Virus record (IMG/VR): IMGVR_UViG_3300044695_005266
Location: 1-64,000 of that record
Reading direction: 5' to 3' (one strand)
DNA: 64,000 bases
Source: a virus
The notes under the pieces are model-generated. The model made no database searches. It was not told the DNA's origin and saw nothing but the letters and a program-made list of their open reading frames with translations. Of this stretch, positions 6,085-50,539 are shown piece after piece (position 1 is the stretch's first letter; each line of letters opens with the position of its first letter). A program made the translations under genes and the position numbers.

Positions 6085-6549
6085 ATGACGGGAATGGACG
6101 TAGCGAAGTTGATGAAACCAGAGACGGCGCGAGTGATCGTGGCGGACTTGGATATGTTCGATCCGCGAGGCATCATCCTGATCTCGTATGCCACGGCACA
6201 CGGCGGGACGGATCTGGCGAAACTTCGGGCCGCGCATGAGTGCGCCCATGCAATCCAGTGGGTTCAAGGCCGAGCGGCATTCGTGTTCTGGCGCATGATG
6301 AGTCCGCTGGTGTGGCCGCTCCTCGGCGTATCGTTGGCACTGGCGGGCTTGATCTCGCGCACGCATACGCTTCCCGCCCTTTCGTTCTGCGCGGTGGTGG
6401 CTGTCCTGCGATATTACGCGACGATGTGGCTGGAGAAGGATGCGTGGAAAATCGCGTTCGAGTGGCTGAAAGCGTATGGAGTTCTTGACGACGAGAAAAA
6501 GGCGAGGCAGGATGCAGAGGCGATGCTGAACTCCTACCGCACCCGATGA
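6085..6549 (+). CDS. Membrane zinc metallopeptidase, YugP-like
   Basis: The protein has HECAHAIQ at residues 51-58, an HExxH zinc site preceded by RAA as in the YugP (neutral zinc metallopeptidase 2) family. A hydrophobic segment with two likely membrane passes follows (about 68-110). The C-terminal part, EKDAWKIAFEWLKAYGVLDD, resembles the YugP segment that supplies the third zinc ligand. At 154 residues it is shorter than cellular YugP (over 200) and lacks the usual first membrane helix. The gene overlaps the terminase start by four bases. It could process a virion or host membrane protein. The family is recognised from motif layout and the role is unknown. Confidence 0.72.
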   Translation: MTGMDVAKLMKPETARVIVADLDMFDPRGIILISYATAHGGTDLAKLRAAHECAHAIQWVQGRAAFVFWRMMSPLVWPLLGVSLALAGLISRTHTLPALSFCAVVAVLRYYATMWLEKDAWKIAFEWLKAYGVLDDEKKARQDAEAMLNSYRTR

Positions 6550-22700: not shown

Positions 22701-25700
22701 GGACTCGAAAGGCAAGTTCAACTTGGCGGACGGCACACGCCGCGTGCAGGCGGCGATGCTCGCTGGCATGGCGCGGAAGGCGGGACTCAAGTATGGCGAA
22801 CTCGCGCAGGTCATGGAGAGCGAAAACGGCAAGCGTGCGATTTCCACCATCCTAGCGAGGGCGGGACGACTCGCGGGCCTCGACTCCGACCTTTCACTCG
22901 CAAGCCCAATCATGGCGGCACTGGCGGCATTCCAGCGCGGAATAGCGGCGGTGAAGGGAGAGCAATACAAGAGTCTGGAGGAATGGTTCAGCAACAGAAA
23001 GATGGAGTTGATCAAGGACGACCTGAGTGCAGAGGGAGAAGCCTTGCTCTCGTTGTTCTCGCGCTCGCAGAGATCCGCCAAGGAACTTGCCACCGTTTTA
23101 GACGCATATTTAGTGCTGGCAAAAGAAGAACAAAATCAGCGTGACTTGGATAAAGAAACGGGCGATATGTTCGGAAATGAACGCGCCAAAGTCAGTCCCT
23201 TCACCCTCCTCTCAAAAATCACGAACACCGCGAGTGCCGAGAACGGCGAACTCTTTACTGAGGGAGGCAGCAGCAAGCCTGAAAATCCCGCTCCCGCCGC
23301 CGAGGACAAAGTAGAACCTCCCGCCGAGGAAAAGCCTGAACCTCCGAAAGAGGAAGAAAAGCAGACCCCGCTCAAGGAGCAGCCAGAGGACACAGACGGA
23401 TCGATTCCTGAAGAACCAGATTTCGGCGCGGACACCGAGGAAGGAATGATCGGCAGACGGCCAATCAAAGTCAGCGACAAACCGACACCCGAATACAAAG
23501 GGCAAACAGTAGGCACACGCGAGGCGCAAAAATCACTCGAAGCAATCGGCGCAGCGGTAGGCAAAACGGTTCCGTTCCAAGTCGGCAGAGTAAAAGGGAA
23601 ACAGAGCGGCACGTTCAAGGAGCATCCCGAAGTGGTCAGGATGCGGACAGCACTCAGCCTCGACGTGGCCGCGCATGAGACAGGGCATCTTCTCGCCAAG
23701 GTTCTCTACAAAACCCTGCGAATCGGTTCACAGAAAGGCGTTGTGCCAAACAACGTATTGCGCGAACTAAAAAAACTCGGCGAAGATTTATACGGCGGAG
23801 CGAAGCCAATCGGCAGCTACACCAGCGAGGGATTCGCTGAGTTCTGGAGACTTTACTTCACCACGGACAACGCTGAAGCAGAGGCACCCAACGCATACAA
23901 GTATTTTACGGAAACCGTTCTCCCGCTGTTCGCAGAAGTGGAGAGCGCAGTGAAGCAGGCCCGCGAAGCATTCACACAATACCGCGCACAAGGAGTCAGG
24001 AATAAAGCATCGGCGGACGTGGTTGATCCGAATAGCTCGGCAAACAAGCTGAAGCGTTTCAAGCAGTCCATGTCTCGGCCTGAACTGATCAGGAAGTGGG
24101 TGGACGAACTCGAACCGATACGCCAGATGGTAGCGGAGGCGGAAGGAAAGCTAGGCGACTCACTCCCGATTGACAGCAACCCATACGCAATGGCGAGCGC
24201 ACTGCGCGGCACGGCAAAACTTGTGGCAGCGTATATGAATGAGAAGGCGATGCGCGACTTCGCTGGAAACATTACAGGGCAGGGACTCTCGGAAATCATG
24301 GCAATCGTGAAGGGCAACGAGTCCGACTTCATGCTGTTCCTTTGGGCGCACCACGCGCTTGAAAGATGGGATGCGAACAAGAACCCCGGCCTCACGCGGG
24401 CGGAGGCACAGTTCCTCGTTGATGAACTCGGCAAAGATCCGAACTTCAACATCGCAGCGGACAAATACTGGAACTGGAACCGTGGCTTGATGAACTACGT
24501 GCGGGAGGCAAGCCCAAGCATCGCCCCGCTGATCGACAGCATCACGTCACGCTGGAAGAAATACATCCCGCTCTCCCGCTGGTTTGAGCCGGGCGAAGTT
24601 CGCACCGCCATCCAAAGCGCACAAACAGGCGCAAGCACGGCACTCAAGAGCATCACCCGTTTCGGCTCAGGGCGCGAGATACTGGAGCCAATGCCAGTGA
24701 TTCTGAACAACGCCGAGAAATGGATCGAACTCGCTCACAAGCGGGTGATTCTGGATGCTGTGATGAATCTCAGGAAGATTGAAGGACTCGGCTTTCAAAT
24801 CGAGGAAGTGCCGCGTGGCCTGAAAATGAACTCGCTCACCGTGGGCGACATTCGCGATCAGTTGGAGAAGATGGGCATGGATACCTCCACCGTGGAGGAC
24901 GACGACATTCTCAACTACTTCACGCCGATGTCGAAGCCGAAGGGGAAAGACCCGATCATTTCCCACTCCGTAGAAGTGATGAATCCCGAAACAGGGAAGA
25001 AGGAACTCAAGACAAAGTGGTTCTTCGTGGAGCCTCGCATCTTCGACGCACTGGAGGGCATTGACCTTTACAGGCTGCCAAAAGCACTGAACCTATTGCT
25101 CGGTTTCCCTGCCAGAATGTTCCGACTTGGAACCACGGGACTCCGCGCATCGTTCAGCTTCTTCACCAACCCCGCCCGCGACTTGCCGACATTGCTCATG
25201 CAGTCCGACAGCAAGGCTAGTGCGCTCACACTGTTCGGATCATGGGTTCGCAGTTTCGGCGCACTATGGAACCCGAACAGACTTCGCGGACAGAATCATC
25301 CGCTCATAGATATGTTCGACAGGTTGGGCCTGCAAGTAGGCCAGCCGCTCGGACAGGACATCGATCCCTACAAGCAGCACCAATCCAAGAGTCTTTCAGG
25401 GCGCATGGTTCACAGGGCGCACAACGCAATCGAGACGCTTCAAAAACTGTTCTCCGTCAGCGAATCCGCCCCGCGCATTGCCGAAATGGAGCAGATTGCG
25501 AAAGACGTAGGTTGGGATTGGAAAGCAGGCGCACCGATAACCACCAAGCAGATGTATGCGATCATGCTCGCGGCCAAGAGATCCACGGTGGACTTCTCGG
25601 CGGCAGGCTCCTACGCGAAGGCTGTCAATCAGGCCATCCCGTTCTTCAACGCGACCATTCAGGGTGCCAGAAGTTTCGGCAGGGCATTCCACAAGAACCC

Positions 25701-34522: not shown

Positions 34523-36889
34523 ATGCCCGCGACATATCACTATGACGGGCATCAGCAGCTAAAGGGAGTATTCGGCGGATCGCCGGATTCCGTTCCTGCA
34601 AACTTTGCGCATCAGGCGATCAACCGATTCTTCCGCGAGGACTACAACCGCGCAAGACCGTCAATTCAGAACATCGAGCTAGAGTTTGAAAACGATGATG
34701 AACGGGTATGGTTTCAAGGCGCGAACGGGCAGGGCGCAACATTCTACAACGGCTATCCGTCATACCTGACAAGCAAGCTGATCGCGAGTGTCGGCGGCAG
34801 GATTTACACGATTGAAGTGAACGGCAGGCGCGGAGTAGTGACGAAGTTGTTTGACGGCAACTCCCGGCAGTTCATGCACACTTGGTTTGCGCAGGGATTT
34901 CAATGGCTCGTCATTCAAGATGGGATTCATCCTCCGCTGTTTTGGGATGGGACAAATGCACCAAGGCGATCTGATCTCGCCAAGAACGAGATGCCGATTG
35001 GCAGCGTCATGTCATTCATCCACGGCAGGTTCGTGGTTGCCAGTTCAGACGGCAAGAACAGCATCTACGTTGGCGACATCGCATACGGAGCAACTCTTAC
35101 CCGACCCGACGACATTCTCAGCTTCACCGAGCAAACGTATTGGGCGGAAGGCGGCAGCTTTGGCACTCCTGTATTTGTAGGTAACATCATGGGGATGTAT
35201 GCAATGCCGTTTCTCGATACGGGCACAGGGCAGAATGAATTAGTTATCGGTTGCACCAACGGATTTACGTCACTCGATTTATCCAAACCACGAGATCAGT
35301 GGATCAATACATCGGTGCAGCGGGTTGCGCTTATCGGCACAGGGCTTTCGTCGTCTCACGGATTTGCAGGGCTGAACGGCGATATGTTCTATCGCTCTCA
35401 GGCGGGCATTGCGAGCTACCGTAACTCGCGCATTGAGTATTCGCAGCGATGGAATCAAACGCCAGTATCAAACGAGGTCAATTACTGGCTGGAACCCGAT
35501 AGAAAGGATTACCTTGAGTTCGTGCCGATGGTGAGTTGGCAGAACATGGTGCTGTGCGGAACGTCGCCGCTTATCGGCTCACCGAACAACGCAGCATTTG
35601 GGAAGCACCGATATTGTCGCGGCATGGTAGTGTTCGATGCGGAAGCAATGAGCACCGCTGGCAGGGACGGCACTCCGGCATGGCACGGGATGTGGAGCGG
35701 CGTAAGACCCTGGGCATTTGCGCAGGGATACATCGGCAACGCCAACCGTTGCTTTGCGTTTTCGTATGATCGTGACGGAAAGAATCGGCTCTACGAGTTC
35801 ACGCTTTCGGATGGTGACGATTTATTTGAAGGGCAACGAAAGAAGATCGAGAGCAGTTACACGACTTCCATGTATGGAAATGTGGAGTCTATCACCAACG
35901 CATTTGCGCCGAAGATTATTAACGGTGGAGTCATTGAGCTTTCAATGATTCGCGGGGCATCCAGCTTCACCGTAGAGTATCGGCCCGATGGTTCGCCTTG
36001 CTGGGTTTTCGTGGATCAGGGAAGCCCCGGATGCGATTGCCCTACAAGAGAAACCTGCGAGGAAAATCCAGAACGCCCGCTGACTGCATCACCGCAATGG
36101 GCGCGGAAGTATCTGCAACAGGTTCCTTCTAACAAATGTGTGCCGGGATCAATCCAGCCCGCGAACAACTTTCATCATTGTCAGGTAAAGGTGAATGCAA
36201 TCGGCAGCTTCACGGTGGATCGCATGAACATCCGTTTCGAGGTTCGCCCTGATGGGCAGATTTCGGAGTGTATGGGCAACAACTGCGCCCCGATTGACTG
36301 CTGCCCGAATGAGGGTGACTACGCCTACTCGATTGCTCCTGTTGGCGAGAACAATGAAATCCCGAATCCTCCTGAGATTCCTGATGTAAGATTCGTCGCT
36401 ACAAGGACGGCGCGTGTGTGCTGCTCGGACTTCCCGTTAATCTGCGCAATCGCAGAAGGAAGCGCGAACTCGCTAATCAGCCAAAAAGATGCCGACACGA
36501 AGGCGCAGGAGGCGGCTACAACCAACGCCTATGCGACATTGCAATGTCCAGAATGCGAGACGCTGACGCTATCGGATACCTACGTTGTCTCCGGCGATAT
36601 TGTGGATTACAGCGGGTTCTTTGCGGCAGGAGAATACCTTGGATCAGTTGGGCAACCGATTCGACTGATCAACGTGCTCACTGATGCGCTGATAGTCGGC
36701 GGGATAGTGGACGAAACCGGAACTTTAGTGATCAACCAGTCATACGATTATCCCGATGGAACCTACGACACTGGAACCAACATTTACACGGATGCGGGAG
36801 CAGGCAGCGCGAGGATTCAACTACAAATCGGGTGCAGCTTTTTCGGAAATCCTACGTGGCCGGAAGTAGAACCTTATTACGGAAGCTAG
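34523..36889 (+). CDS. Tail nozzle/hub-type structural protein, 788 residues
   Basis: A long β-rich protein without membrane segments. Its N-terminal part (NFAHQAINRFFREDYNRARP, about 27-46) and the many FHGRFVVAS/VYVGDI-like blades resemble the β-propeller nozzle proteins of short-tailed phages (T7 gp12, P22 gp10). From about 495 it carries cysteine clusters (GCDCPTRETC, CAPIDCCPN, CC near 633). The genes before (fibres) and after (adaptor) agree with a tail role. It probably forms the distal tail tube and anchors the Cys-rich fibre proteins (inference). Confidence 0.78.
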   Translation: MPATYHYDGHQQLKGVFGGSPDSVPANFAHQAINRFFREDYNRARPSIQNIELEFENDDERVWFQGANGQGATFYNGYPSYLTSKLIASVGGRIYTIEVNGRRGVVTKLFDGNSRQFMHTWFAQGFQWLVIQDGIHPPLFWDGTNAPRRSDLAKNEMPIGSVMSFIHGRFVVASSDGKNSIYVGDIAYGATLTRPDDILSFTEQTYWAEGGSFGTPVFVGNIMGMYAMPFLDTGTGQNELVIGCTNGFTSLDLSKPRDQWINTSVQRVALIGTGLSSSHGFAGLNGDMFYRSQAGIASYRNSRIEYSQRWNQTPVSNEVNYWLEPDRKDYLEFVPMVSWQNMVLCGTSPLIGSPNNAAFGKHRYCRGMVVFDAEAMSTAGRDGTPAWHGMWSGVRPWAFAQGYIGNANRCFAFSYDRDGKNRLYEFTLSDGDDLFEGQRKKIESSYTTSMYGNVESITNAFAPKIINGGVIELSMIRGASSFTVEYRPDGSPCWVFVDQGSPGCDCPTRETCEENPERPLTASPQWARKYLQQVPSNKCVPGSIQPANNFHHCQVKVNAIGSFTVDRMNIRFEVRPDGQISECMGNNCAPIDCCPNEGDYAYSIAPVGENNEIPNPPEIPDVRFVATRTARVCCSDFPLICAIAEGSANSLISQKDADTKAQEAATTNAYATLQCPECETLTLSDTYVVSGDIVDYSGFFAAGEYLGSVGQPIRLINVLTDALIVGGIVDETGTLVINQSYDYPDGTYDTGTNIYTDAGAGSARIQLQIGCSFFGNPTWPEVEPYYGS

Positions 36890-36921: not shown

Positions 36922-37422
36922 ATGCCCACCAACACACAGATTGTAGCGACTCTTGGATGGACGGATGCGCCACCTGATCTCTCTTGTATTCCCGGCGATC
37001 TGAATGAACTCGGCAGGGTGATGTCGCAGTTCTTTAACGTCAATTCTACTACCAGCGAAATTGACACGGGTTCACAAAACTCCATTGCGCAACAGGCACT
37101 TGAACAATCCGCGATTGCCCTCGCTACCGCACAGCAGGCGATTGCCGTTCAACCGCAACTTAGAAGCAGCGGTGAACCTATTCCGTTGGCTACGGGAACA
37201 TTCAATGAGCTTTCAATCTCATGGTCGCCAGCAATGCCCGACACGAACTACATGGTGATCGGAACATTCTACGGAGACACAGGAAATCTTGGAGCTTCCA
37301 AGCCAACATTCCGTGTCATTACCGGAACGAGAACCACGACATCTTGCAGGCTCGGAATGGAGGATATTCCGGCTGGTAAAAACTTTGCCTTCGCCTACCT
37401 GATTCGTTCGCTTACTACGTGA
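36922..37422 (+). CDS. Small tail-region protein, 166 residues
   Basis: It starts MPTNTQIVATLGWTDAPPDL. The middle is an Ala/Gln-rich helix (SIAQQALEQSAIALATAQQA, about 54-73) and the C-terminal half is β-rich. That arrangement suggests a trimeric or hexameric accessory protein. It lies between nozzle-type and adaptor genes. No family is recognised. Confidence 0.76.
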   Translation: MPTNTQIVATLGWTDAPPDLSCIPGDLNELGRVMSQFFNVNSTTSEIDTGSQNSIAQQALEQSAIALATAQQAIAVQPQLRSSGEPIPLATGTFNELSISWSPAMPDTNYMVIGTFYGDTGNLGASKPTFRVITGTRTTTSCRLGMEDIPAGKNFAFAYLIRSLTT

Positions 37423-38390
37423 AAACTCAACGCACCATAGTCCGTGACATCATAGAGGACATCGCGCCAATGGTGCTCGACAGCGGCGTATGCCCGACGA
37501 CACCGGAAGGGATTGAAATCGTTCTATCGTTTCTGAACAAAGCCTGCTTTGAACTGCATACGCGCATTGATTCAGAGGGAACACTTTTCGAGTGGTATGT
37601 TCCAGTGGAGAGCGGTTGCTTTGCGCTTCCGCAGGATTGCCGTGAAGCCCGTCAAATCGGCATCAACGGCTTGCCATTGCGCCAGCGCAGCGAGTTCTTC
37701 ATCGGCAAGGTTGCGACAGGCGGCAGCTACGGCGGGTGCGCCCCATACGAGTGCCGCGATCTCGGTGACTTCTACATCCCGAAATATCTACCCAAGACAC
37801 AGGGCATCAGGATTGCGCTGGTAGCGACGGAAGATGCCGATGCAGGGAAAGAGGTTATAATCGAAATCACGAACGAACACGGGGTTCCTGTGCGTCAGAC
37901 GTTGACGCTGTTGCGCGATGCGCTTCCCGTGGTGATGGATTCCGTTGCATTCGACGTAACCTTTTTTAAGAAGCCTAAGACAACTGGGCCTGTCTTGCTT
38001 CAACTGCACTACGACAACGGGCAACGGTTCAACTTCTGTTCGTATCTACCCGACACAGAGGAAGGGCTGTTCCGCAGAAAGCAACTTCCGCAAATGTGGT
38101 GGGGCTGCAACCTTGTTCGCATCCTCGGCAAAACAAGATTTGTGAAGATTGATTCCGTGGATCAGATTCTTCCGTTCAATCATCCAGTGGCAATCGGGTG
38201 GGCGTGTTCAGCGATTGCGGCATGGCGAAGGCGGGATGACGAGACGAACGTGAAGCATATGAACCTTGCGCTGGAATCGCTGAAATCGCAGATGCGCGAT
38301 GCCGACAGCGCGAGCAACGAGAAGCAGGTAAAGATTCGCAGCAACTTCAACAACCCGTCACTCGCCGGAAACTACAAACGCTGGTCATGA
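37419..38390 (+). CDS. Head-to-tail adaptor (tail tubular protein A-like), 323 residues
   Basis: It starts with GTG at 37419, overlapping the previous stop as GTGA. The N-terminal helical bundle (about 1-60) is followed by LPQDCREARQIGINGLPLRQ, a loop typical of T7 gp11/P22 gp4-type adaptors. The C-terminus contains helices around AIGWACSAIAAWRRRDDETN, as in proteins that dock under the portal. In the virion it would join the portal to the nozzle. The assignment rests on pattern and context. Confidence 0.76.
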   Translation: MKTQRTIVRDIIEDIAPMVLDSGVCPTTPEGIEIVLSFLNKACFELHTRIDSEGTLFEWYVPVESGCFALPQDCREARQIGINGLPLRQRSEFFIGKVATGGSYGGCAPYECRDLGDFYIPKYLPKTQGIRIALVATEDADAGKEVIIEITNEHGVPVRQTLTLLRDALPVVMDSVAFDVTFFKKPKTTGPVLLQLHYDNGQRFNFCSYLPDTEEGLFRRKQLPQMWWGCNLVRILGKTRFVKIDSVDQILPFNHPVAIGWACSAIAAWRRRDDETNVKHMNLALESLKSQMRDADSASNEKQVKIRSNFNNPSLAGNYKRWS

Positions 38391-38920
38391 AGAAGCCATT
38401 TATCATTCTCGCCATGCCTCGCTCGATGACAGCGTGGACTTCCTGCTTCCTGACAATCGGCAACGTGTTTTGTCAGCATGAGATTCTTCGTAAGGACAGG
38501 CGCACGGATGTTGTGGTTCAATCCATCCTCGGCCAGCCTTACAAGTATAGCGGGGCAGCGTGTCCAGGGTCGCTGATGGTGTGGCAGGAGTTGGTTCATC
38601 GAATGCCTGATGCCAACTACATCTACATTCGCCGTTCTCCGGCACAGTCGTTGAAGTCATTGGCGAAGGTTGCGCAAGTGACAGAGGATATGATGGAGGA
38701 AGGGTATGAACAACTCAATCAGAAGGCGCGGGAGTTCATGCAATTCGTGGAGCCGAAGGTGATAGACTTTGCAGAGCTTGCTACAATGAAGGGGATGCGG
38801 AAGTTGTGGAATTGGGTTTGCCCCGAAGAACATTTACCGGATCAACATTTGGTCAAGATGCACTCGCTGCACATCGAACAGAGAAGGGAAATAATTCATG
38901 CACAAGTATTGGGAAAATAA
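38387..38920 (+). CDS. Sulfotransferase-like protein, 177 residues
   Basis: The N-terminus FIILAMPRSMTAWTS (residues 5-19) has the PRS-x-T-x-W motif that binds the 5'-phosphosulfate of PAPS. IRRSPAQSLKS (81-91) corresponds to the 3'-phosphate-binding R-x-x-x-S-x-x-S element. The length is short for the family. Sulfotransferase-like proteins occur in several phages, but the acceptor is unknown. It is coupled to the adaptor gene by ATGA and to the citrate-synthase-like gene by a 23-base overlap, so the pair may act together. Confidence 0.75.
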   Translation: MKKPFIILAMPRSMTAWTSCFLTIGNVFCQHEILRKDRRTDVVVQSILGQPYKYSGAACPGSLMVWQELVHRMPDANYIYIRRSPAQSLKSLAKVAQVTEDMMEEGYEQLNQKAREFMQFVEPKVIDFAELATMKGMRKLWNWVCPEEHLPDQHLVKMHSLHIEQRREIIHAQVLGK

Positions 38921-39455
38921 CGAATCACTCACTGAACCCGAAATGCGCCTGCTCGGTGCGCTTTACCATGCTCACGCGCAATGCGTGTTCCGCGAGAACT
39001 GTTCCACGATGGCACTTCAACAGGCTGCATTCGGCAGTCGCAATGTGGTCAATGGCTACATCGCTGCACTCGCAACGCTTGGCGAGGTTCACGGGCCGAT
39101 TGTTGAGGCTTGCAAGGTTCTGACGGGCGAAAGAACCAACGGCGACAGGGTTGCGGGTTTCGGCAACAGCTTCATCAAGGGTGAGCCGGATGCCGCATTT
39201 GCGAAGGTGCATGAGTTGCTGAAAGAACAAGCACCGCATCTCGTTGATCGGATTGAAAAGATTCAAGAGAACTTACTGCTTTCGGGGAAGAACCTGTTCC
39301 CGAATCCAGCGTGTTACACGGCGGCGGTTGCGCTGGCACTTGGGATGCCTGCAATCGTCGCTCCTTCGCTATTCGTGCAGGCGCGTATCGAGCCTTGGAC
39401 GGTGCTGTTTTATCAAGTCATTAAATCAAATACTAATATGAAGGAGGGAATATAA
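38898..39455 (+). CDS. Citrate-synthase-like protein lacking catalytic residues
   Basis: The 185 residues follow the C-terminal half of citrate synthase in order: VVNGYIAALATLGEVHGPIVEA (the HGxxxE helix, His65), GFGNSFIKG-EPDA (87-99), and KNLFPNPACYTAAVALALGM with LFVQARIEPW (131-167). In cellular enzymes the second block is GFGH and the third has NVDF. Here the histidine is Asn90 and the aspartate is replaced by Ala138, so two of three catalytic residues are gone. It is probably a pseudoenzyme or a structural reuse of the fold, not a citrate-making enzyme. Finding it in a tail gene block is unexpected. Confidence 0.7.
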   Translation: MHKYWENNESLTEPEMRLLGALYHAHAQCVFRENCSTMALQQAAFGSRNVVNGYIAALATLGEVHGPIVEACKVLTGERTNGDRVAGFGNSFIKGEPDAAFAKVHELLKEQAPHLVDRIEKIQENLLLSGKNLFPNPACYTAAVALALGMPAIVAPSLFVQARIEPWTVLFYQVIKSNTNMKEGI

Positions 39456-40333
39456 TGGGCGCGATTATCGCCGGGGCCGTTATCGCAGCAGGGGGCGCAG
39501 CCTATGCCGCCAACGAATCATCCAAGGCATCCAAAGAGGCTCAATCCGGCATGGCTGAACTCGCCAAAAAGGGTAGGCTGGACGATCCAGAATTGGTGGA
39601 TTGGATGAACGCTGGTCGGTTTGCCACAGATCAGAATCAGCAGAATTGGGGAAGAACCATGCGGCTTGCTGGCGGGGTGAACCGATTCCAGCAGAATCAG
39701 GCGTTGAAGGGCTACGAGAAGTTTCAGCCTTACTTCCGCCAGAATCAGGAACTCATCGGGCGCAACGCTGCATCCTTTGCCCGTGGTGAGCTACCAAGTG
39801 ATGTAGTTGGCAGCATCGGCAGGGCGGCAGCACAGCGCGGCATCCAAGGCGGGTTCGGCATGAGTCAAGGCGCAGGTGGCGGCGGCACAGCATTGGGCGG
39901 ATTAAATCTGCGCAACCTTGGACTCGCATCACTCGACCTAAGTAAATGGGGAACGCAATTCGCGCAGGAGACGAACAAAGCGGGTGCATCCATGATGCCG
40001 GGACTCTTTGATCCAAGTAGCCAGTTCCTCAACCCCGCTCTCGCCTTAAACGGGATGCAGTTCAACGCGAACGCAATCAATCAGACGAATCAACTGAATG
40101 CGGGCTACGAGAACGCGATGGGCATGGGCATGATTGCGAATCAGCAACAGTCGTCGTTGCAGCAGGGGCAGATGGTGCAAGGCGCAAGCAACACAGTTGC
40201 AGGATTGATGGGTCAGTATGCACAGATGCAGCAGGCGCAACAGATGCAGAACAACTACAACAACAACGCCAACAGTTCGTCCCCTGATTTGAGGCAGTAT
40301 AACATAAATACCAGAGAACAGATAACCTCATAA
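39455..40333 (+). CDS. Internal virion/ejection-type protein, 292 residues
   Basis: It starts with a Gly/Ala-rich hydrophobic stretch (MGAIIAGAVIAAGGAAYAAN), then a helical, Gln/Asn-rich body, and ends in a Gln/Met/Asn tail (about 225-280). This resembles small ejection proteins of short-tailed phages, which are stored in the head and form a channel through the cell envelope. The two genes after it share this style. Family membership is inferred. Confidence 0.72.
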   Translation: MGAIIAGAVIAAGGAAYAANESSKASKEAQSGMAELAKKGRLDDPELVDWMNAGRFATDQNQQNWGRTMRLAGGVNRFQQNQALKGYEKFQPYFRQNQELIGRNAASFARGELPSDVVGSIGRAAAQRGIQGGFGMSQGAGGGGTALGGLNLRNLGLASLDLSKWGTQFAQETNKAGASMMPGLFDPSSQFLNPALALNGMQFNANAINQTNQLNAGYENAMGMGMIANQQQSSLQQGQMVQGASNTVAGLMGQYAQMQQAQQMQNNYNNNANSSSPDLRQYNINTREQITS

Positions 40334-40334
40334 T

Positions 40335-41639
40335 ATGCCACTAGGAATACCAGAAGGAAACCCGATGGCGATTGCCGCAATGGGCGAACGCTACGGGGAT
40401 CGTCTTGTCGGCCAGCTTGCACAGGCTGGCGGCATGATCGAGAACGGATTGAAGGCTGTAACCACGATGAAGGAGTTACAGAGTCTCGGTCAGAACCTTT
40501 CGCAGATTTCGCCGGAATCACCGGACTACCAGCAACAGTTGATGCAGTTGGGTGCAGCGCATCCGTTCGCCATGCAAGACCCGCGAGGTCAGGCTTTGGT
40601 CAGCATGGGCAACCAGCAACATCTACAATGGAAGAATCAGCAATTTGCAATGCGGCAGGCTGATCGACAGGAGGAGCGGGCGGATCGGCGCGACGAGGCA
40701 TCATATACAAGACAGGGAAAACGAGATGCTTCATTGCACGACTTCCGTATGGCGGAAATTAATCAGCGATGGGGCGGTGGGGGCGAAGGGGGTATTGATT
40801 TTAGCGGAGGATTGCCAACAAAAACTACGCCCGTATCCGGTTTTTCTGATGATACTTTAGGGGGAGCTTCGGCGGCGAATATGGGCGATCCGTCTATGGT
40901 TCAACCAGAGCCTTCTCTTTTTATTGATGCAACAGCAGCGGAACCTACTAGCCCGCCAGCCGGGTTTTCGGCCAGAGGGCAAGCGATGGGCGATCCGAAC
41001 AACAAGGAGCTTCAAGATGCATACAGGGAGCGCGGAAGGATTATTCAACAAGCGTATGGAGGCAGACCGCTTTCAAGAAAGGAGGTTGCCCAACTTGTAG
41101 TTGCGCCAGTAAATAAGGAGCTTGCGGCAGGGACTTCGGCCGAGGGCAAAGTAGTAGCGCAAGATAAGAGCCTTGCCGCTAGAAAACAATCCGAAACTGA
41201 TAAGCGGGAGTATGATAAATGGAAGCTGCAAACGCTACAAGAAGCCAGCGTGAAAGCAGCGGCAACAATGCAAGAGGCCAAAAAGGAATCGGCACGCATT
41301 CTTGCTGGCGGCAAGTTCACCGATTTCCAGAAGGGGGAGATGAGACCATTGCAGAAAGAAATGGAGGACTCGATTGAAATTGCTAATTTATTACTTTTGA
41401 AGTTACGGGCAGCCGAAGCTAGCGGTGAAGAATTGGCCGAAACTCAGTCGCAGGCGACGCAAGCCAGAATTGCGGCGAATGAGGCCACAGAGCGTTACAA
41501 GAATTGGATGAAAGAGAATGGCGGCGGCAGCGCGGCAAGCTCGGATAAGGTTCGTGTCGTCGGCCCTGATGGAAAGAAATACAATTTACCAAAGTCTCAA
41601 CTTGAAGATGCTATCCGGCAGGGATACAAGCAGGAATGA
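40335..41639 (+). CDS. Helical internal virion-type protein, 434 residues
   Basis: Mostly charged α-helix: about 10-130 with Gln/Met-rich segments and RQEERADRRDEAS, and a second coiled-coil region at about 275-400. A Gly/Pro-rich linker lies near 145-215. It is placed between the ejection-like protein and the second giant protein and overlaps the latter by four bases (ATGA). A role as ejection or internal core protein is inferred. No motif identifies it. Confidence 0.74.
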   Translation: MPLGIPEGNPMAIAAMGERYGDRLVGQLAQAGGMIENGLKAVTTMKELQSLGQNLSQISPESPDYQQQLMQLGAAHPFAMQDPRGQALVSMGNQQHLQWKNQQFAMRQADRQEERADRRDEASYTRQGKRDASLHDFRMAEINQRWGGGGEGGIDFSGGLPTKTTPVSGFSDDTLGGASAANMGDPSMVQPEPSLFIDATAAEPTSPPAGFSARGQAMGDPNNKELQDAYRERGRIIQQAYGGRPLSRKEVAQLVVAPVNKELAAGTSAEGKVVAQDKSLAARKQSETDKREYDKWKLQTLQEASVKAAATMQEAKKESARILAGGKFTDFQKGEMRPLQKEMEDSIEIANLLLLKLRAAEASGEELAETQSQATQARIAANEATERYKNWMKENGGGSAASSDKVRVVGPDGKKYNLPKSQLEDAIRQGYKQE

Positions 41640-44600
41640 CTTTAAACCTAGAGCCTGTTCTTGATTTAGAACCGATTGACGATAAAGGTTCTAAGCTGGA
41701 TTTGGAGCCTATTGACGAATCCCCGAAAGAATCCATAACCCCGTCACAGGATTACGGTGGTGCGGGGACAGCACCAGCATCCGATCCATATCCCGCACCC
41801 CCTGCATGGATGGCTACGCCCGATATTCCGGAAGCACCGCCAGAAGTCGCGCAGCAGGCACGGTATGCGCAGGAAATGGCAAGGCATGGAATAGACTCAA
41901 TTACGCTCGCGTCAAAGTGGGATTGGAGCGATCAATATACACCGGAGCAGAAGTTCTTAGAACAGAACAGGCGCAGGGCCGTAGCCTCGATTGAACGGGA
42001 TGATCTCAAGGAGAAGCTGAAAACCCCTGACCGATTACCGCAGGAACCCTTCAACCCTACATCTGCGCTCTCACCTGAGTATCGCGCTACGGCACAAACA
42101 GAGGGGCGCGTGCGGGAGCTAGATGCGCAGATTTCGGCGTTGTCCGAATCCGCGAAAAGCCCTGCCGTCTTGGACTACGAGAAACGCGCACGCGACAAGG
42201 AGAAGGAGCAGATGGAGCTAGAGCAAATGCGGGAGCGCATTAAAAAAGAGGTCTATGGTGAAGGCCCGAATCCGGTATTTAGCACAGTTCTCAGGACTGG
42301 CGGTGCGCTTGCGGGACAACTTGGTGGTGCGTTCGCGTTTTTCACGGGCAACAAAGAAGATGGGTCTATCGCGTATAACTTGGCTAATGTAGAAAAGAGC
42401 ATCCGAGATGCGACTGGCGTTGACGAAAGCACGGCGGGACGGGTTGCCGGGGCAATCGGTGACACGTTAGGGCTGATTGTCGGCCCGACAGGAAAGAGCG
42501 GACTAGCGAGAACGGCTTTCGGATTATCAACGGCAGCAAGGGCGGCGGCTCATGCTTACGGCAACGCGCTTTCATCTGGCGAAACCAAGGGGCAAGCGCT
42601 GAAATCGGCATTGATGACGGCGGTGGAAATGGCGGCGTTTCTTGGGCTGGCTCACAAGGCAAAGGCCGGGATCACAAGTATCACAGGGTCATTGAAACCC
42701 ACAGCCGCTCCCGCTGCTTTGGCAGCAGAGGAAATGCTGAAATCGGGTGTAGCGAATATGGCTGCAAGCGGTGCATTGCGATTCGCGCATGGAGAAGGAT
42801 TCGCGCCTACACTGGAATCAGCGGTGACGGATTGGACTTTTGCCGCGCATGGCGGGATGAACGCATTCGGTCAACGTCGGTCAAGCATTGCGGCTGTTGC
42901 AAAGGCTGACGCTATGCGCGGAACTCTGTTTCCAGAGGGGGCTACCGAAGTAAAAACCAGAGATTCCGTTGTTCATACCGCGACAACCAGCGAATTGTTT
43001 TCAGCTTTAGTCAATAGACAAAGCGAACTTGCAAACAAGCCTACTCGCACAAAAGCAGAGGAAAAAGAACTAAAAGAGCTTGATGCGGTTGATGGAGATC
43101 ACTTGGCGATCAAGAAGATACTTGATGCCAAAGCGAAAGAGGCAGGGATACAGCGTGTCAGAGATACAGACAGGACGGAGTTTGAGCAGGCGATAAAGGA
43201 GAAAATTACAGAACTGGAATCCCGCGAACTTGACGGACAGGAGGAAAGGCTATTGGAGACGCTGAAATCACAGCCAATAGAAGCCATTGCTACGATGTAT
43301 GGCAAGAGGTTGTCGGAACCCGTATCCAGCCAAGCAGGGATGCAGCAGCAGCCGATCAACGTGAATGTTTCACCTGCACCCGCTGCACCAACTGCTGCAA
43401 AACCAGCAGAAGCGATACGGGTTGATCTTGGTGATTCTGCTATTGCTGAGATAAATCCAGCGACAGCGGAAATAAGGTATTCATCCACAGCCGATCCGAA
43501 TGCGTTTGGAAGATTGGAAACCAGCGAGGGTCTAAATGGTGAGATTATTGTAGAGAATCATCATTTGGATGAAGGATTGCGCGGAAAAGGATTCGGAGGA
43601 AAAGCCATACAGAAATTACAGGAAATAACAGGGAGAACAATTATTTCCGATGAGCGTCCATCGGCTAACGCAAGGGCGATGTGGGACAGGCTTGGAGCAA
43701 AGCGGGAGCGCGTTAAATTGACGGAGGACGAAAGCCAGATGCGCTATGTTCTTCGTCCCGAAAAACCAGCATCACCCGCACCCGAAAACCTTCCGCCAAA
43801 AGTTGAAACCGCAATCCGCGAAGGCACAGCAACCCCGGATCAGCTTCAAAGCGCAACCGAGCAACCCTTGCTATTCGACACACCAAAGCAGAAGCGGGAT
43901 GCGTTTGTGCTGCGCGATGCTTTGCGGCAGAAGATTGACGAGGTTGAAGCTGGCGAATACAGCGAGAACCAGGACAGGAATCACGCGAGACTCACGGAAA
44001 TGTTGGGTAAAGTGGAAAAGCAGATCGCGGATAATGCGAAGCCAGCGGATAAACCGGATGTGGTGGAGGCTGTGCCGGAATCGGCTGAACCCGCTGCCGA
44101 GGTTAGGGGTTCTGTATTTGAAACTACCGTAAGAACGCATGAGGGAGAGGCAAAAAAGATGTTTGCCGTTCAGCGCGGCGAAAATCGAGGCATGGGAGAT
44201 AGGGTTTTCAATACACGGGAGCAGGCAGAAGCGTTCTCCAAAGAGCAGGAAGCGGACATAAAGCGTGCTGCCGACAAGAAGATAGCTATCGAAAAAGAAG
44301 CAGCCGATAAAGCGAGGGCAGAGGCTGAAAGACCTAGAACCGATATAGAGATTTACACCGACGGTATGCCGCCAATGCAGCGCGGAAAGATTTCCGCAAC
44401 GCTGTCTGAATACGGAGGAAAGAGGGCTGGCGGAAAGACGTATGACGGGACAAGGGCGCAAGTAACCAAGCAGTTATTAGAGGCTGGCTATGTCCCGAAA
44501 TCGGTTGAGGTTTCTGCCGTTAAGGAGTTGTCCGGCAATCGCATGAACAAGATGGATCAGCGCGAGCAAGATGCGTATGAAGCCAAAAGAAAAAAGGCAG

Positions 44601-47600
44601 GAACGAAAACCGAGTATAGGCTTGAAAAGGGCGATGGAGATAGCGTTTTTACTGTCACAAAAGCAGAGCATGATTATGCGGTTCATCTAAAGAGCAAGGA
44701 ACCAACTGCTGAAAAACCAGCATCACCTGCAAAAGCGGAACCCGCACCCGTTGCGAAGGATGTGCCAGCCAAGGCGGAAGAACAAAAGTTTAGATACTAC
44801 GCCGAAGTAAAGAAGTCTCAAATGCCGCTCATAGAAGATGCGGAAACTGGCATAAAAAAGAGATACGAAGATGCAGTTGGAAAGAAACTCACGGGCGACG
44901 AGGTTTTCAATTTAGCGACTCGCATTGCCGATTCAATCGAATCCACTGGAAAGAAATCTCCGCACATTCAAGACCTACTGGACTCGGCTACGGATCAGCA
45001 AATCAAACGGGCATACGAATCTCTGAATAAGCAAGCAGAACCCGCACCCGTGCTACGCAAGGGGGAGAATCAGGGTGACTTGCTCAAGGGAAGATCGGAT
45101 GACGCTTTCAACCTAGTAGGCGAAAAGCAGGCTGAACCTAAACCAGCGGAACCCGCAGGCCCGACAAAGGAGAAAATGGCAGATGCCGCGATGCGGGCTT
45201 ACGGTAGCTACGAGAGGGCTATCGAATCGCTCAAGGTGCAGATGGAGGGCAAAATATCGGCAGAATCGAAGCAGCGGGTCAAGATAACCATCAACGAACT
45301 AGAGCGCAGACGAGATAACGAATTACGCGCCGAAATGGAGAAGGAGCAGATGGACGCTGTTCGTGAACAGGAAGATAGTGGCGGCAACGAACTACTGTCC
45401 GTTATCAGGAAGCTAGGCGGGTTGCCGTTGATCGGGAAAGAGACGGTGCTAGGTGGCGAGTTTAAGCGTGTTTTCGAGATGCCGCGAGGCAAGCATCTGC
45501 GCATGAAGTGGACGAGCAAGATGCAAGGCAAGTCGCTGGATGCCATTCGCCAGGAGTTGGAGGGGCATGGGTTCTACTTTGAAACGCCAGCGGAGATGCT
45601 AGAAGCAATCGGTAGGGCGATGCGCGGTGAACGGATTGTCGGTAGCGAGAAGCCGATGGAGGGTGGACAGGAGGATTTCTTCAATCGTCAATCCATATCC
45701 GACAAAGCTCCGGCATCCCCGATGCACGTTAATGCGGTGCAACGTATCGCCACTACGCTGATAGCCAGGTTCAAGGGTGCTGCCAAGACTACGGTTGTAG
45801 CTGATGGAGAGCAGTTGCCGGAAGCCGTGAAAGCCAAAGCGCGGGAGCAGGGCATTGCTTTGAATCGCATTGGCGGGGCTGTGCATGACGGCAAGGTGTA
45901 TCTGAACGCCGCTGGACTTGAATCGCCTAAACGTGCTGCCGAGATATTCTTTCACGAACAAGCGGGTCATATGGGCGTTGACGGGCTGCTGGATGGCATA
46001 TCGGCTAAGAGTTCATCGCGGCTGATGGAGGTATTAAAGCGCGAGTTTCCGGCTGAATCGAAGTATGTCGCTGAACGCTACGTCGAGGGCGAGCATCTGG
46101 CGGAAACGCTTGCTCGTATCATGGAGAAGTTCGGGCCGGAATCCGATGCAACCCCGCAAGCGCAATCGCGCTATCGCAGAGTTGTGGATTTCATTCGCAC
46201 GATTCTCGCAAAATCCGGCATCAAGAATTGGAGCAAAAACGACATCGAAGCCCTGTTGCGCCGTGGCATTGAAAAGGTTCGCAGGGGTGAAGGGAAGGCG
46301 GATAAGGGGGATACGAAGCTGAGCATTGAAGATGAAGAATATACACTTTCGGGCGACCTAAACGATCCATACACAAAACGAGAAATTGTTGCAGAAAAAA
46401 AGCGAATCGCAGAAAAGTCAGACAAGGAACTACTTGAAAGCATACAAGGGCAAGCCGCTCTATTTAAGCTAAGGAGTCAGGACTTAAAGGCAGGAAGCGA
46501 AGTTGTATTTCCTGCGTCAACTTCCGTTACGCCATTTACGAGAGCAAGGATGGGACTGCATTACGAAGAAGCCATGAGGAGGGGGCTGGATGTGCCGCAA
46601 TCCAGTGGATTAAACAAATACATCGGATTCAAAGAGCAGGGCATGGACAGAATCGGAGGTTCGCGGGACAACATCCGTTTCGCTATTAACGATGAACCCG
46701 GTGGTCGTTCTGCATGGGAAGCCAAGCGCGATGCCTTCCGTAAGAACAAGGAAAAGACAAAAGAGGATGACTTGTTTGCCGCTGCGCCAAAAGCGGAACC
46801 GATCCTCATGTCGAGCAAGAACGCCTTTCAAGCGGAAGAAGCGCGGAAGCGCGGCGAATCACCGATTGAATCGGACTTCTACCGCTCAAATCCAGAGGTA
46901 GCCGAAGCAGCGCGTGTAGCGATGGACAAGAACCCTGATGCCGTGGATACGGTGATTAGGCATCTGCTAGAGGAAGGGCGGGACACGCGCAAAATCTCCA
47001 TACAGGAAGAAGCGATGTTGGTTCATCGCGGGTTCGATCTGAAACGTCAGGTTGCGGGGGCTGAACGGATGATTGAAAACAAAAACAGCACACCAGCGCA
47101 AAAGGCAATGGCCGAGGACAGTATTATAGATGCACAGACGAAGATGATTGAGCTTGCAACTGCCATGCACGCATCAGGCGAGGTATGGGGCGCGTTCGGT
47201 TCATTCCGTCAGCGGATATTCCAAGATGACTTTTCTCCGGCTTCGATGGTGCGCAAGCTGGAAAAGGCGAAGAACGATAAGTTGACCGATGCAGAAATTG
47301 CAGAGGTCGAGATTGAGGCGAAGAACATTGAGATGATTCGCGTTGATTTTGAAAAGGCGGAAAGGGCTGCCGTGGACATTCAGCGGGACGATGCCGCACA
47401 GGATGCGTTCGACAAAGCCTCTAGGTATCATCCGAAGGTGCTGGAATATGCAGAGGGTATCGTTGCCAAGTGGGAAGCGGAAGCCGTGAAAGCGCGGAAA
47501 GATTTACGCGAGGCAATGGGTATGGTGTCTGCCAACCCGCTATCGCTCAAGGTTGCCGCTGCCTTGTTCAAGATTGCGCGGGCTAAGATTGCTCGCGGAT

Positions 47601-50539
47601 CGCTGAACGCCGCTGAGTTCACAGCGGAAATGGTTGCTGAGTTCGGTGATTCGGTGAAAACAGCAATACAACCTGCATGGGATCAAGCGATGAAGGCTAT
47701 CGGCAAGCTGGATGCGAATAAGGAGCGCAAGAAAACACCGAAGCAGAAGAAAGCAGAGAAAACCGCAATGGACGAAGCGGAATCCATCGAGGACGGTATC
47801 AAGGCTGTTGCGAAAGACCCGAAATCGCTGAATGACGGCTTTGACTCATACGTGAAGAAGCTGGCGAACGAGTATGTTCGGATGGGCGAAACCACTGTTG
47901 CCGGGGTAATCGCCAAGCTGCACAAGTTTTTCGATCCAATGCTGCCGGGCTTGACCGACAATGCTTTGAAGGAGGCATGGACAAAGTTCGGCAAAGGTAA
48001 AGAGGCTACAACCGATCCAACGAAGATGCTGCAAAGCCAGCTGCGCTACGAAGCGTTGTTGGAGCGCAAGATTTCCGATTTAGAGAAGCTGAAAAGCCCA
48101 CCGCGCACCGCCAATGAGCGCGTGAAACAGACGGAACGAGCAGGGCGATTGCTGGCAGAGATCGCGGAACTCAAGAAGAAGCTACCGCCTGATGAGGGCA
48201 ATGCCGCTGGACGGCTGCAATCCTCACTGGATGCGATGGAGACTCGCGTTCGTAACCGCATCGCGGAACTGCGCTACGAGATCGCTAAGGGCGAACGCAC
48301 GCTGAAACAAAAGGGTGTGCCGCCGACAAGCCCAAATCTGGAAGCCTTACGCGCTGAACTCGCGGAAGTGGATGCGGCTCATCTTGCGGTGTTTGGCAAG
48401 CGTCAGATGACCGAGGAACAGAGGCAAAAAGCTGCAATCCGCTTGGCTGAACATTTGGAGAAAAAGGCTATGGCGGAACTCGCCAACGCCAAGAAGGGTA
48501 TCTTCGCGCAACCTGCTGCAAAAGGAGTCAGCCGATTCGTTGAGGTTGAGGCGATACGCAAAAGGGCGGAAGCTGCGCGGGCTGAGACGAAGGCGTTGAA
48601 GGGAATGGATGCGGCGATACAGGAGGCGAAGAAAACTGCTGCCTTGGAGTCTGAAATCAAGAAGTTGGAATCCACGCTTGCCGAAGGAAAGTTTGCGCCG
48701 AAGGAAAAGGAATCCGATCCTACCGTGGAGACGGAAGCCGTCACAAACCTGCGAGCCAAACGGGATGCACTCGCTGCTGAACTGGCAGAGAAGCGCAAGG
48801 CTGCGCGTCCTGTGCCAGATGCGGAGTTGCGGGAGTTAAATCGGCTGGAAAGCGAACTAGCATCGCTGATGGTCGGCAGGGCTAAACCGCAGAAGAAGAT
48901 GACAGTGGACACGGAGCAACAGGCGTTCGCACGGGAGCAGCTTGCAGCTAAACGCGCTGAACTGGCAGAGATTCGGGCTAACGATGATATGCTCAAGATC
49001 GCCAACAGGAAAGCGGCAATCCTTCGCCAAATGGCAGACCTGGCGGATCGCACGGCTCGCGGTGACTTTGAACCGCGCAAGAAAAAGCCCGCACTCGATA
49101 TATCCAAAGACCCGGATACGATGAGACTAGCGGCAGAGCTAACAAAGAAAAAAGCTGATTTCGCAAGGCGCGTAGAGAAATACAGACTAGCGAATCTGAC
49201 ATCCGTGCAGCGCGGGCTTATCAATCTCGGTAAGACTTGGGATGCTACCCGCAACCTTTTCCTCTCATTCGATTTCAGCGCATTCCTACAAACGGCAGCG
49301 GCGGCGGCAGCGCACCCGTTGGAAGCCGGGAAAGCACTTGGTAAAGGAGTCAAGGCGTTTGCCTTCACTCTGTTCTCAGATCGTTACGCGCATGAGTTAC
49401 AAGAGCGGGCGCGTCAGGAGCCGTTATACAAGAACGGAACATTCAAGAAGATGGGGCTGGAAATCAGCGAGACGATGGGCGAAGCGCGGGAAGAAAATAT
49501 GGTGAACGTGTTGGAGCGATTAGCTGACGTTCAGACGCGCTGGAAGGATATGCCGGAAGCCGTGAAGAAGCTGATCGGGATGCGCGGTGTTCGGAATATC
49601 GTTAGCGGGCCAATGGATATGTTGAAGTATGCTGGTTGGAGAAGCGGCATCGGGCGCGGACTCAAGGCGAGCAATGTAGCGTTCGGTGCTATCGCTGGTC
49701 ACATGAGGCTGGTTGTAGCAAAGTCGCTTCTGCGCCGTTGGTTTCCGGACGGAAACGCGACAGACGCACAGCTTAAACTGCTTGGGAAATTGGCGAATAC
49801 CTTCTCAGGAAAAGGCGGAATCAAGAACGGTGGTGCGCTGAATCGGATTTTCTTTGCGCCTAATTATTACCTCTCAATTATGAAGGGGCTTTCTGCATGG
49901 GATATGAGGGAAGCGGCTATCGCTGGCGAAGGAAAGGTGGTGGCGGCTATGGCGGAAGAATACGTTCGCGCAATCGCTACTATCGTTACCGTTGGCAGCA
50001 TCGCGTATCTACTCGGAGACAGGAATGAGCAGGACATCAATCCGCTGGATAGCGATTTCGGCAAGTTCGTCGGCAAGCACGGCACTCGGACAGACCTATC
50101 AATGGGGCGCGGGGCTTACGTCACGCAGGCTGCGAGATACCTTACTGGCTATACGAAAGAGGATGGAAAATATGTCAAGCGCGACAGGAATACAGGGCTT
50201 GCGCTGTTCCTCGCTGGAAGGTTTAGCCGTGAAATCAAAATGGCTACGGCTATCCTGGACGGGAAATCCTACGACAAAAAGCTGGAAGGGCCGTTGGATT
50301 ACTTAAAAGAGTCGTCGCTTCCGCTCGCTTGGCGTGATCTCGATAAGGTGCTGGAAAAAGAGGGCATCACCCGTGGCGCATTTCTGCAAATGCTCAATCT
50401 TCTCGGCATCACTTCTCGCATCAAAGACGAGAAAAAGAGCAGCGGATCAATCAACAACATGGACAGCAAAATAAAACGAGAGATTACAGGTGAAATCGGC
50501 CTTGGCAAAGGCTCAATACTTCGTCAAAGGGTTGATTGA
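41636..50539 (+). CDS. Second giant polyvalent protein, 2967 residues, with GNAT-like and zincin domains
   Basis: In order: an acidic N-terminus with LEP repeats; a Gly/Ala-rich hydrophobic region (about 215-410) like that of internal virion proteins; and a GNAT acetyltransferase-like domain (about 590-705) with the acetyl-CoA loop RGKGFGGKA (649-657) and a following SANARAMWDRLGAKRE. Charged linkers follow, and then a zincin with FFHEQAGHMG (HExxGH at 1440-1445) and EGEHLAE (1484-1490) as likely third ligand. A coiled coil of about 700 residues (1790-2520) and a helical C-terminus with a hydrophobic span near 2785 (IVTVGSIAYLL) complete it. It ends the virion block, in the position where podoviruses keep ejection proteins. 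Entry into the host with the DNA is inferred. Confidence 0.9.
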   Translation: MTLNLEPVLDLEPIDDKGSKLDLEPIDESPKESITPSQDYGGAGTAPASDPYPAPPAWMATPDIPEAPPEVAQQARYAQEMARHGIDSITLASKWDWSDQYTPEQKFLEQNRRRAVASIERDDLKEKLKTPDRLPQEPFNPTSALSPEYRATAQTEGRVRELDAQISALSESAKSPAVLDYEKRARDKEKEQMELEQMRERIKKEVYGEGPNPVFSTVLRTGGALAGQLGGAFAFFTGNKEDGSIAYNLANVEKSIRDATGVDESTAGRVAGAIGDTLGLIVGPTGKSGLARTAFGLSTAARAAAHAYGNALSSGETKGQALKSALMTAVEMAAFLGLAHKAKAGITSITGSLKPTAAPAALAAEEMLKSGVANMAASGALRFAHGEGFAPTLESAVTDWTFAAHGGMNAFGQRRSSIAAVAKADAMRGTLFPEGATEVKTRDSVVHTATTSELFSALVNRQSELANKPTRTKAEEKELKELDAVDGDHLAIKKILDAKAKEAGIQRVRDTDRTEFEQAIKEKITELESRELDGQEERLLETLKSQPIEAIATMYGKRLSEPVSSQAGMQQQPINVNVSPAPAAPTAAKPAEAIRVDLGDSAIAEINPATAEIRYSSTADPNAFGRLETSEGLNGEIIVENHHLDEGLRGKGFGGKAIQKLQEITGRTIISDERPSANARAMWDRLGAKRERVKLTEDESQMRYVLRPEKPASPAPENLPPKVETAIREGTATPDQLQSATEQPLLFDTPKQKRDAFVLRDALRQKIDEVEAGEYSENQDRNHARLTEMLGKVEKQIADNAKPADKPDVVEAVPESAEPAAEVRGSVFETTVRTHEGEAKKMFAVQRGENRGMGDRVFNTREQAEAFSKEQEADIKRAADKKIAIEKEAADKARAEAERPRTDIEIYTDGMPPMQRGKISATLSEYGGKRAGGKTYDGTRAQVTKQLLEAGYVPKSVEVSAVKELSGNRMNKMDQREQDAYEAKRKKAGTKTEYRLEKGDGDSVFTVTKAEHDYAVHLKSKEPTAEKPASPAKAEPAPVAKDVPAKAEEQKFRYYAEVKKSQMPLIEDAETGIKKRYEDAVGKKLTGDEVFNLATRIADSIESTGKKSPHIQDLLDSATDQQIKRAYESLNKQAEPAPVLRKGENQGDLLKGRSDDAFNLVGEKQAEPKPAEPAGPTKEKMADAAMRAYGSYERAIESLKVQMEGKISAESKQRVKITINELERRRDNELRAEMEKEQMDAVREQEDSGGNELLSVIRKLGGLPLIGKETVLGGEFKRVFEMPRGKHLRMKWTSKMQGKSLDAIRQELEGHGFYFETPAEMLEAIGRAMRGERIVGSEKPMEGGQEDFFNRQSISDKAPASPMHVNAVQRIATTLIARFKGAAKTTVVADGEQLPEAVKAKAREQGIALNRIGGAVHDGKVYLNAAGLESPKRAAEIFFHEQAGHMGVDGLLDGISAKSSSRLMEVLKREFPAESKYVAERYVEGEHLAETLARIMEKFGPESDATPQAQSRYRRVVDFIRTILAKSGIKNWSKNDIEALLRRGIEKVRRGEGKADKGDTKLSIEDEEYTLSGDLNDPYTKREIVAEKKRIAEKSDKELLESIQGQAALFKLRSQDLKAGSEVVFPASTSVTPFTRARMGLHYEEAMRRGLDVPQSSGLNKYIGFKEQGMDRIGGSRDNIRFAINDEPGGRSAWEAKRDAFRKNKEKTKEDDLFAAAPKAEPILMSSKNAFQAEEARKRGESPIESDFYRSNPEVAEAARVAMDKNPDAVDTVIRHLLEEGRDTRKISIQEEAMLVHRGFDLKRQVAGAERMIENKNSTPAQKAMAEDSIIDAQTKMIELATAMHASGEVWGAFGSFRQRIFQDDFSPASMVRKLEKAKNDKLTDAEIAEVEIEAKNIEMIRVDFEKAERAAVDIQRDDAAQDAFDKASRYHPKVLEYAEGIVAKWEAEAVKARKDLREAMGMVSANPLSLKVAAALFKIARAKIARGSLNAAEFTAEMVAEFGDSVKTAIQPAWDQAMKAIGKLDANKERKKTPKQKKAEKTAMDEAESIEDGIKAVAKDPKSLNDGFDSYVKKLANEYVRMGETTVAGVIAKLHKFFDPMLPGLTDNALKEAWTKFGKGKEATTDPTKMLQSQLRYEALLERKISDLEKLKSPPRTANERVKQTERAGRLLAEIAELKKKLPPDEGNAAGRLQSSLDAMETRVRNRIAELRYEIAKGERTLKQKGVPPTSPNLEALRAELAEVDAAHLAVFGKRQMTEEQRQKAAIRLAEHLEKKAMAELANAKKGIFAQPAAKGVSRFVEVEAIRKRAEAARAETKALKGMDAAIQEAKKTAALESEIKKLESTLAEGKFAPKEKESDPTVETEAVTNLRAKRDALAAELAEKRKAARPVPDAELRELNRLESELASLMVGRAKPQKKMTVDTEQQAFAREQLAAKRAELAEIRANDDMLKIANRKAAILRQMADLADRTARGDFEPRKKKPALDISKDPDTMRLAAELTKKKADFARRVEKYRLANLTSVQRGLINLGKTWDATRNLFLSFDFSAFLQTAAAAAAHPLEAGKALGKGVKAFAFTLFSDRYAHELQERARQEPLYKNGTFKKMGLEISETMGEAREENMVNVLERLADVQTRWKDMPEAVKKLIGMRGVRNIVSGPMDMLKYAGWRSGIGRGLKASNVAFGAIAGHMRLVVAKSLLRRWFPDGNATDAQLKLLGKLANTFSGKGGIKNGGALNRIFFAPNYYLSIMKGLSAWDMREAAIAGEGKVVAAMAEEYVRAIATIVTVGSIAYLLGDRNEQDINPLDSDFGKFVGKHGTRTDLSMGRGAYVTQAARYLTGYTKEDGKYVKRDRNTGLALFLAGRFSREIKMATAILDGKSYDKKLEGPLDYLKESSLPLAWRDLDKVLEKEGITRGAFLQMLNLLGITSRIKDEKKSSGSINNMDSKIKREITGEIGLGKGSILRQRVD

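Follow-up and report, generated by a model that had tools for sequence, protein, structure and literature searches.

The window analysed here, 64,000 nucleotides drawn from an IMG/VR virus record of 66,766 bases (IMGVR_UViG_3300044695_005266), encodes on its plus strand a half-length citrate-synthase-fold protein of 185 aa (38898..39455) that does not make citrate and is probably half of a two-part phage enzyme or assembly factor, not a TCA-cycle gene. On balance, we favour reading it as one subunit, with the citrate synthase fold, of a two-part phage protein, the other part being the product of an overlapping sulfotransferase-like gene (38387..38920, plus strand). A fold of central metabolism is thus found fixed in phages, unable to make citrate and coupled to a sulfotransferase-like partner. 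Because the family exceeds the Pfam citrate synthase cut-off, virome surveys may miscount its members as TCA-cycle auxiliary metabolic genes.

The assignment of the 185-aa protein draws on Pfam, AlphaFold2, Foldseek and a set of 65 relatives. Its ORF opens with an ATG at 38898, downstream of a ribosome-binding-like stretch (AGAAGGGA), and its stop ends at 39455; its overlaps with the neighbouring genes are 23 nt on the upstream side and 1 nt on the downstream side. The protein matches Pfam PF00285 (E 2.5e-8, 33.8 bits for a cut-off of 27), with residues 34-168 aligned on profile positions 183-341 of 357; the match begins at 183, and the ORF is the equivalent of citrate synthase's C-terminal half, the full-length dimer-forming large domain being absent. 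Single-sequence phmmer searches of the PDB return citrate synthases, from E 2.7e-6, and a 37-sequence family profile reaches 2-methylcitrate synthase at E 3.8e-15. An AlphaFold2 model built on the family alignment (pLDDT 92.5, pTM 0.89) has the same fold: Foldseek matches are citryl-CoA lyase, PrpC and citrate synthases (TM on query 0.6-0.79 overall, 0.73-0.79 for 6hxp, 3tqg and 6hxn). Homology to citrate synthase beyond chance and identity of fold are therefore confirmed, a chance resemblance being ruled out by the profile and fold evidence. An earlier sequence-only reading had proposed this fold in a gene at these coordinates and had read its motifs correctly, as the ORF call and the GltA alignment show. 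Two outcomes that would have overturned that reading, a predicted structure without this fold and homologues with the complete catalytic triad, were both looked for, and neither was seen.

The residues that would make citrate are gone. In an alignment to E. coli GltA (numbered with the initiator Met), the blocks H65-G-P, G87-F-G-N90, F134-P-N-P-A138 and R163 are collinear with GltA H264, H305, D362 and R387, so that H264 corresponds to His65, H305 to Asn90, D362 to Ala138 and R387 to Arg163. The exchange of the GFGH histidine for Asn90 and of the NVD aspartate for Ala138, both called from the window protein, holds throughout the IMG/VR relatives: the H305 position is Asn in 41, Ser in 22, and Gly and Thr in 1 each (His in 0/65), and the D362 position is Ala in 47, Ser in 17 and Gly in 1 (Asp in 0/65). 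What remains of the pocket is near-invariant. His65, the counterpart of the catalytic GltA H264, is present in 65/65 relatives, as are Ser36, Asn136, Trp167 and Arg163 (the last matching the substrate-binding R387), while His26, Asn34 and Asp98 each occur in 64/65; the position of GltA R314, after D98-P99, is mostly Ala, Ile or Leu, Arg falling outside its eight commonest residues in the relatives' alignment. The family also retains a [VI]-[PA]-G-x-G loop, and we take its V-P-G-x-G form as the counterpart of the citrate synthase CoA adenine loop, a likeness that makes a CoA-type ligand site possible. Comparison of the window protein with two relatives (dN 0.023 and dS 0.33 against L003; dN 0.21 and dS 1.9 against L008) gives a dN/dS of ~0.1, that is, purifying selection. 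Since the substitutions are found in all relatives, the remaining pocket is near-invariant and dN/dS is ~0.1, the replacement of the His and Asp required for citrate formation is a fixed rewiring and not decay. The description "catalytically dead" therefore stands for citrate synthesis, by residue loss, and does not extend beyond it, the near-invariant pocket permitting another chemistry.

The relatives come from successive IMG/VR scans that yielded 14, 26, 52 and 223 related stretches, 80 of the last 223 being kept; the set compared consists of 65 distinct full domains. Three of the search patterns included the substituted catalytic positions, a hit needing only one of two patterns, and a control scan with an N-terminal pattern spanning neither catalytic position returned only contigs already known and no exception, though relatives with both catalytic residues intact could remain under-sampled despite this control. 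In one relative (L055, 4553-5125), the citrate-synthase-like gene lies in two frames, because the gene is disrupted or because of an error in sequencing. No relative was found among 50,697 annotated phage records with the window protein, the L012 protein or a fusion protein as query, nor in BFVD structures with the citrate-synthase-like model; in PHROGs the citrate-synthase-like protein drew no more than a borderline match, to an unrelated profile (E 0.37), and two pattern scans of GTDB species genomes found no relative, weak evidence of absence given how short the patterns are. Three candidates were rejected, the first two being weak hits obtained with two other family members: (i), an OLIVR5-like "tail protein" match (E ~0.01) is spurious, the 448-aa tail protein being devoid of the family motifs; (ii), Acinetobacter "phage" prpC matches are annotated as ordinary 2-methylcitrate synthase and, at 23% identity, lie outside the family; (iii), a phiH1 gene adjoining a sulfotransferase-like gene lacks the citrate synthase motifs. 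The citrate synthase fold and the sulfotransferase superfamily are both already known; in the literature that we searched, we found no account of a virus-only, partnered and rewired citrate-synthase-fold family.

The main clue, omitted from the sequence-only reading, is the overlapping partner. Its product is a sulfotransferase-like P-loop protein of 177 aa, so assigned from Pfam matches below the cut-off (Sulfotransfer_4 at 1.7e-4, Sulfotransfer_3 at 9e-4; gathering scores missed with 21.9 against 22.8 bits and 20 against 27 bits), from a match of its family profile to protein-tyrosine sulfotransferase (TPST, E 2e-5) and from linkage. In the window it carries PRSMTAW, resembling a 5'-phosphosulfate loop, and IRR...S, resembling a 3'-phosphate site; these roles (PAPS-binding loop, 3'-phosphate Arg/Ser) are our assumption from what is known of the sulfotransferase superfamily. 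The cofactor loop keeps its Arg and its Thr/Ser in 27/27 members each, and the 3'-phosphate motif is partly lost in some (Arg in 22/27, Ser in 18/27).

A sulfotransferase-like gene is adjacent or fused to the citrate-synthase-like gene in 46/65 relatives, coming first in 16 and second in 28, the two being fused into one ORF in the remaining 2. Going by automatically picked start codons, the genes overlap by 1-44 nt in 41 pairs, are fused in 2 and are separated by 1-3 nt in 2 and by 262 nt in 1. All Asn90 proteins (41/41) have the partner, and in the window's branch the citrate-synthase-fold gene always lies beside, overlaps or is fused to a sulfotransferase-like gene. On the tree, whose deep branches are not strongly supported, the citrate-synthase-first order requires three changes. 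An AlphaFold2 model of a fusion protein (pTM 0.55) has a low-confidence linker, and its domain arrangement is not reliable. A search for the sulfotransferase-like protein gave 80 loci, the majority of which lack a citrate-synthase-like gene, and the partner does not need that gene because it often occurs without it, even at the same place in one contig (L205).

Nor is the pairing universal, given that 19/65 relatives, mostly with Ser90, have no adjacent partner, at loci near replication and RNA-polymerase genes. These 19 form one branch (support 88/96), with a T7-type RNA polymerase and DUF932 (both confirmed) and RusA-like and primase genes (read from sequence) as neighbours. The sulfotransferase family profile, run without a positive control, found no match in 16 contigs of this second branch. 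Two second-branch contigs (L071, 5538-6104; L168, 1498-2151) encode elsewhere a different, common phage sulfotransferase of the PRSGSS/SGRTGSS type.

In the window's branch, the pair sits in a virion block. Upstream lie a large tail protein of 788 aa (34523..36889, plus strand), nozzle- or tail-tubular-B-like by position and length only, and a 323-aa protein (37419..38390, plus strand), tail-adaptor-like by position only, whose gene shares 4 nt with the sulfotransferase-like gene. Downstream, the start codon of a 292-aa protein (39455..40333, plus strand), with a Gly/Ala-rich N terminus and internal-virion-protein-like by position, overlaps the citrate-synthase-like stop in a TAATG, and the four genes from 37419 to 40333 (37419-38390, sulfotransferase, citrate-synthase-like, 39455-40333) form a chain of overlaps. 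Pfam and PHROGs give the window's flanking genes no names; their roles are predicted from position and length. Where relatives of this branch are divergent, the pair still lies between homologues of 34523-36889 and 39455-40333: in most such lineages the former precede the citrate-synthase-like gene by ~3-4.7 kb, in many the latter follow the pair directly, and homologues of 37419..38390 hold the same place in five contigs (L003, L008, L012, L050, L205). The tail-block placement noted earlier is thus conserved across divergent phages of the window's branch. The slot has other occupants. In L205, with flanking genes homologous to those of the window, it holds the sulfotransferase alone; in L197, a sulfotransferase-like gene with a GNAT acetyltransferase (1482-2021); in L204 (3422-4057) and L246 (3500-4084), a sulfotransferase-like gene with an Asp/Asn beta-hydroxylase, the neighbours being named by PHROGs as a head-closure protein in L204 and virion proteins in L246. 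In T7 the corresponding slot, between the tail tubular and internal virion genes, holds gene 13, and a paper on cobaviruses reports a GNAT at that position, which it compares with T7 gp13 and connects with virion morphogenesis (PMC6775973).

Several other ORFs of the window deserve mention. A 2967-aa ORF (41636-50539) downstream of the internal-virion-like genes probably encodes, judging by its place, an internal virion protein or polyvalent protein of very large size, and a single 5326-aa ORF (10720-26700) lies between the packaging genes and an SU10-type portal gene. The terminase large subunit ORF (6546-8837, 763 aa) matches terminase at residues 230-745 and shows a weak dual-specificity phosphatase match at residues 81-153 (Pfam DSPc, E 6.7e-4, below the cut-off); it would be unusual for a terminase to carry an N-terminal domain resembling a phosphatase. 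A DNA N6/N4 methyltransferase is encoded on the minus strand (933-2342, Pfam 5.3e-23).

In the two-part protein that we favour, the citrate-synthase-like and sulfotransferase-like proteins would form a complex. The citrate synthase domain may have kept a binding site whose ligand could be CoA or some other 3'-phosphoadenosine compound, and might recognise or present an acceptor or cofactor to the sulfotransferase domain; the use of CoA- or 3'-phosphoadenosine-type cofactors by each of the GNAT, sulfotransferase and citrate synthase folds is suggestive only. More speculatively still, the pair could have a late role directed at virion or ejection proteins, or at their assembly, as a component of the gene-13 slot. 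A bolder proposal, which we regard as unlikely, is a virus-only enzyme in which the sulfotransferase and rewired citrate synthase domains form one active unit that handles 3'-phosphoadenosine cofactors (PAPS and CoA) and modifies either a target in the host or the ejection proteins of the virion. If it were true, the podovirus T7 gene-13 slot would serve generally to house enzymes that modify proteins or metabolites, namely GNAT, sulfotransferase, hydroxylase and the citrate synthase fold.

Alternatively, the protein might be a virion morphogenesis factor in which the fold is purely structural, a scaffold like T7 gp13, with neither ligand nor chemistry. The nozzle-like and internal-virion-like surroundings conserved across divergent phages speak for it, as does the presence in the same slot of T7 gene 13, itself a probable scaffold protein; however, the pocket residues are near-invariant, the partnerless branch lies outside the virion genes and the fused or overlapping partner carries an enzyme-like motif, making this explanation improbable to us. 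The structural role put forward at the outset is in any case not general to the family, given that the second branch lies near replication and RNA-polymerase genes, away from virion genes, and that a sulfotransferase-like domain is fused in two lineages. Somewhat less probable again is a stand-alone active enzyme that would perform a new acyl-CoA or carboxylate chemistry through His65 and Arg163 and for which the sulfotransferase would be dispensable. This is consistent with the near-invariant pocket, with citryl-CoA lyase and methylcitrate synthase as the closest folds and with the existence of a branch without an adjacent partner, but the base Asp and the second His are gone from all relatives, the N-terminal half is missing and the sulfotransferase gene is tightly coupled in the window's branch.

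A decoy role towards host metabolism, also raised before, found no support; whether as decoy or as inhibitor, action on the host's citrate synthase or CoA metabolism appears very improbable: fold similarity is all that suggests it, against which the protein lacks the N-terminal half of the enzyme, the gene lies in a late virion block in the window's branch and the coupling to the sulfotransferase would be left unexplained. Last, a captured metabolic gene decaying without function, as half length and lost catalytic residues might suggest, is scarcely credible, being refuted by the selection test and opposed by the replacement of both catalytic residues in all 65 relatives and by the lack of a relative in the GTDB scans.

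The two-part phage protein can be placed against known systems on both of its sides. With citrate synthase and 2-methylcitrate synthase (PF00285; GltA, PrpC), the family has the C-terminal-half fold in common (TM on query 0.78 to PrpC 3tqg), and the H65, GxG, PN and R163 blocks come in the same order; in contrast to GltA and PrpC, (i), the N-terminal half is missing, (ii), the catalytic His and Asp are replaced in all relatives and (iii), there is neither a conserved Arg at the R314 position nor a counterpart of R407'. Because two defining catalytic residues, the counterparts of GltA H305 and D362, were checked and are absent, we do not class the protein as a citrate synthase. Citryl-CoA lyase and the ATP-citrate lyase module (6hxp, 6hxn) are shorter members of the same fold and gave the best Foldseek E-value (1.7e-5), but the phage protein has ~185 aa against ~260, is coupled to a sulfotransferase-like protein and does not reach the NCBIfam citryl-CoA lyase cut-off (16.1 against 212 bits). 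The partner has the PR-S-x-T loop and the R...S motif in common with sulfotransferases (Sulfotransfer_3/4; TPST), whereas it stays below the Pfam cut-offs, is only ~180 aa long and has an invariant His35-(Glu/Asp)36 after the P-loop helix. The T7 gene 13 slot (gp13; cobavirus GNATs) lies at the same place, from tail tubular to internal virion genes, the window roles being assigned by position; gp13 carries PF11090 only, a domain absent from the Pfam scan of the window protein, and the two are unrelated by sequence. The family offers a direct test of gene-13 slot function.
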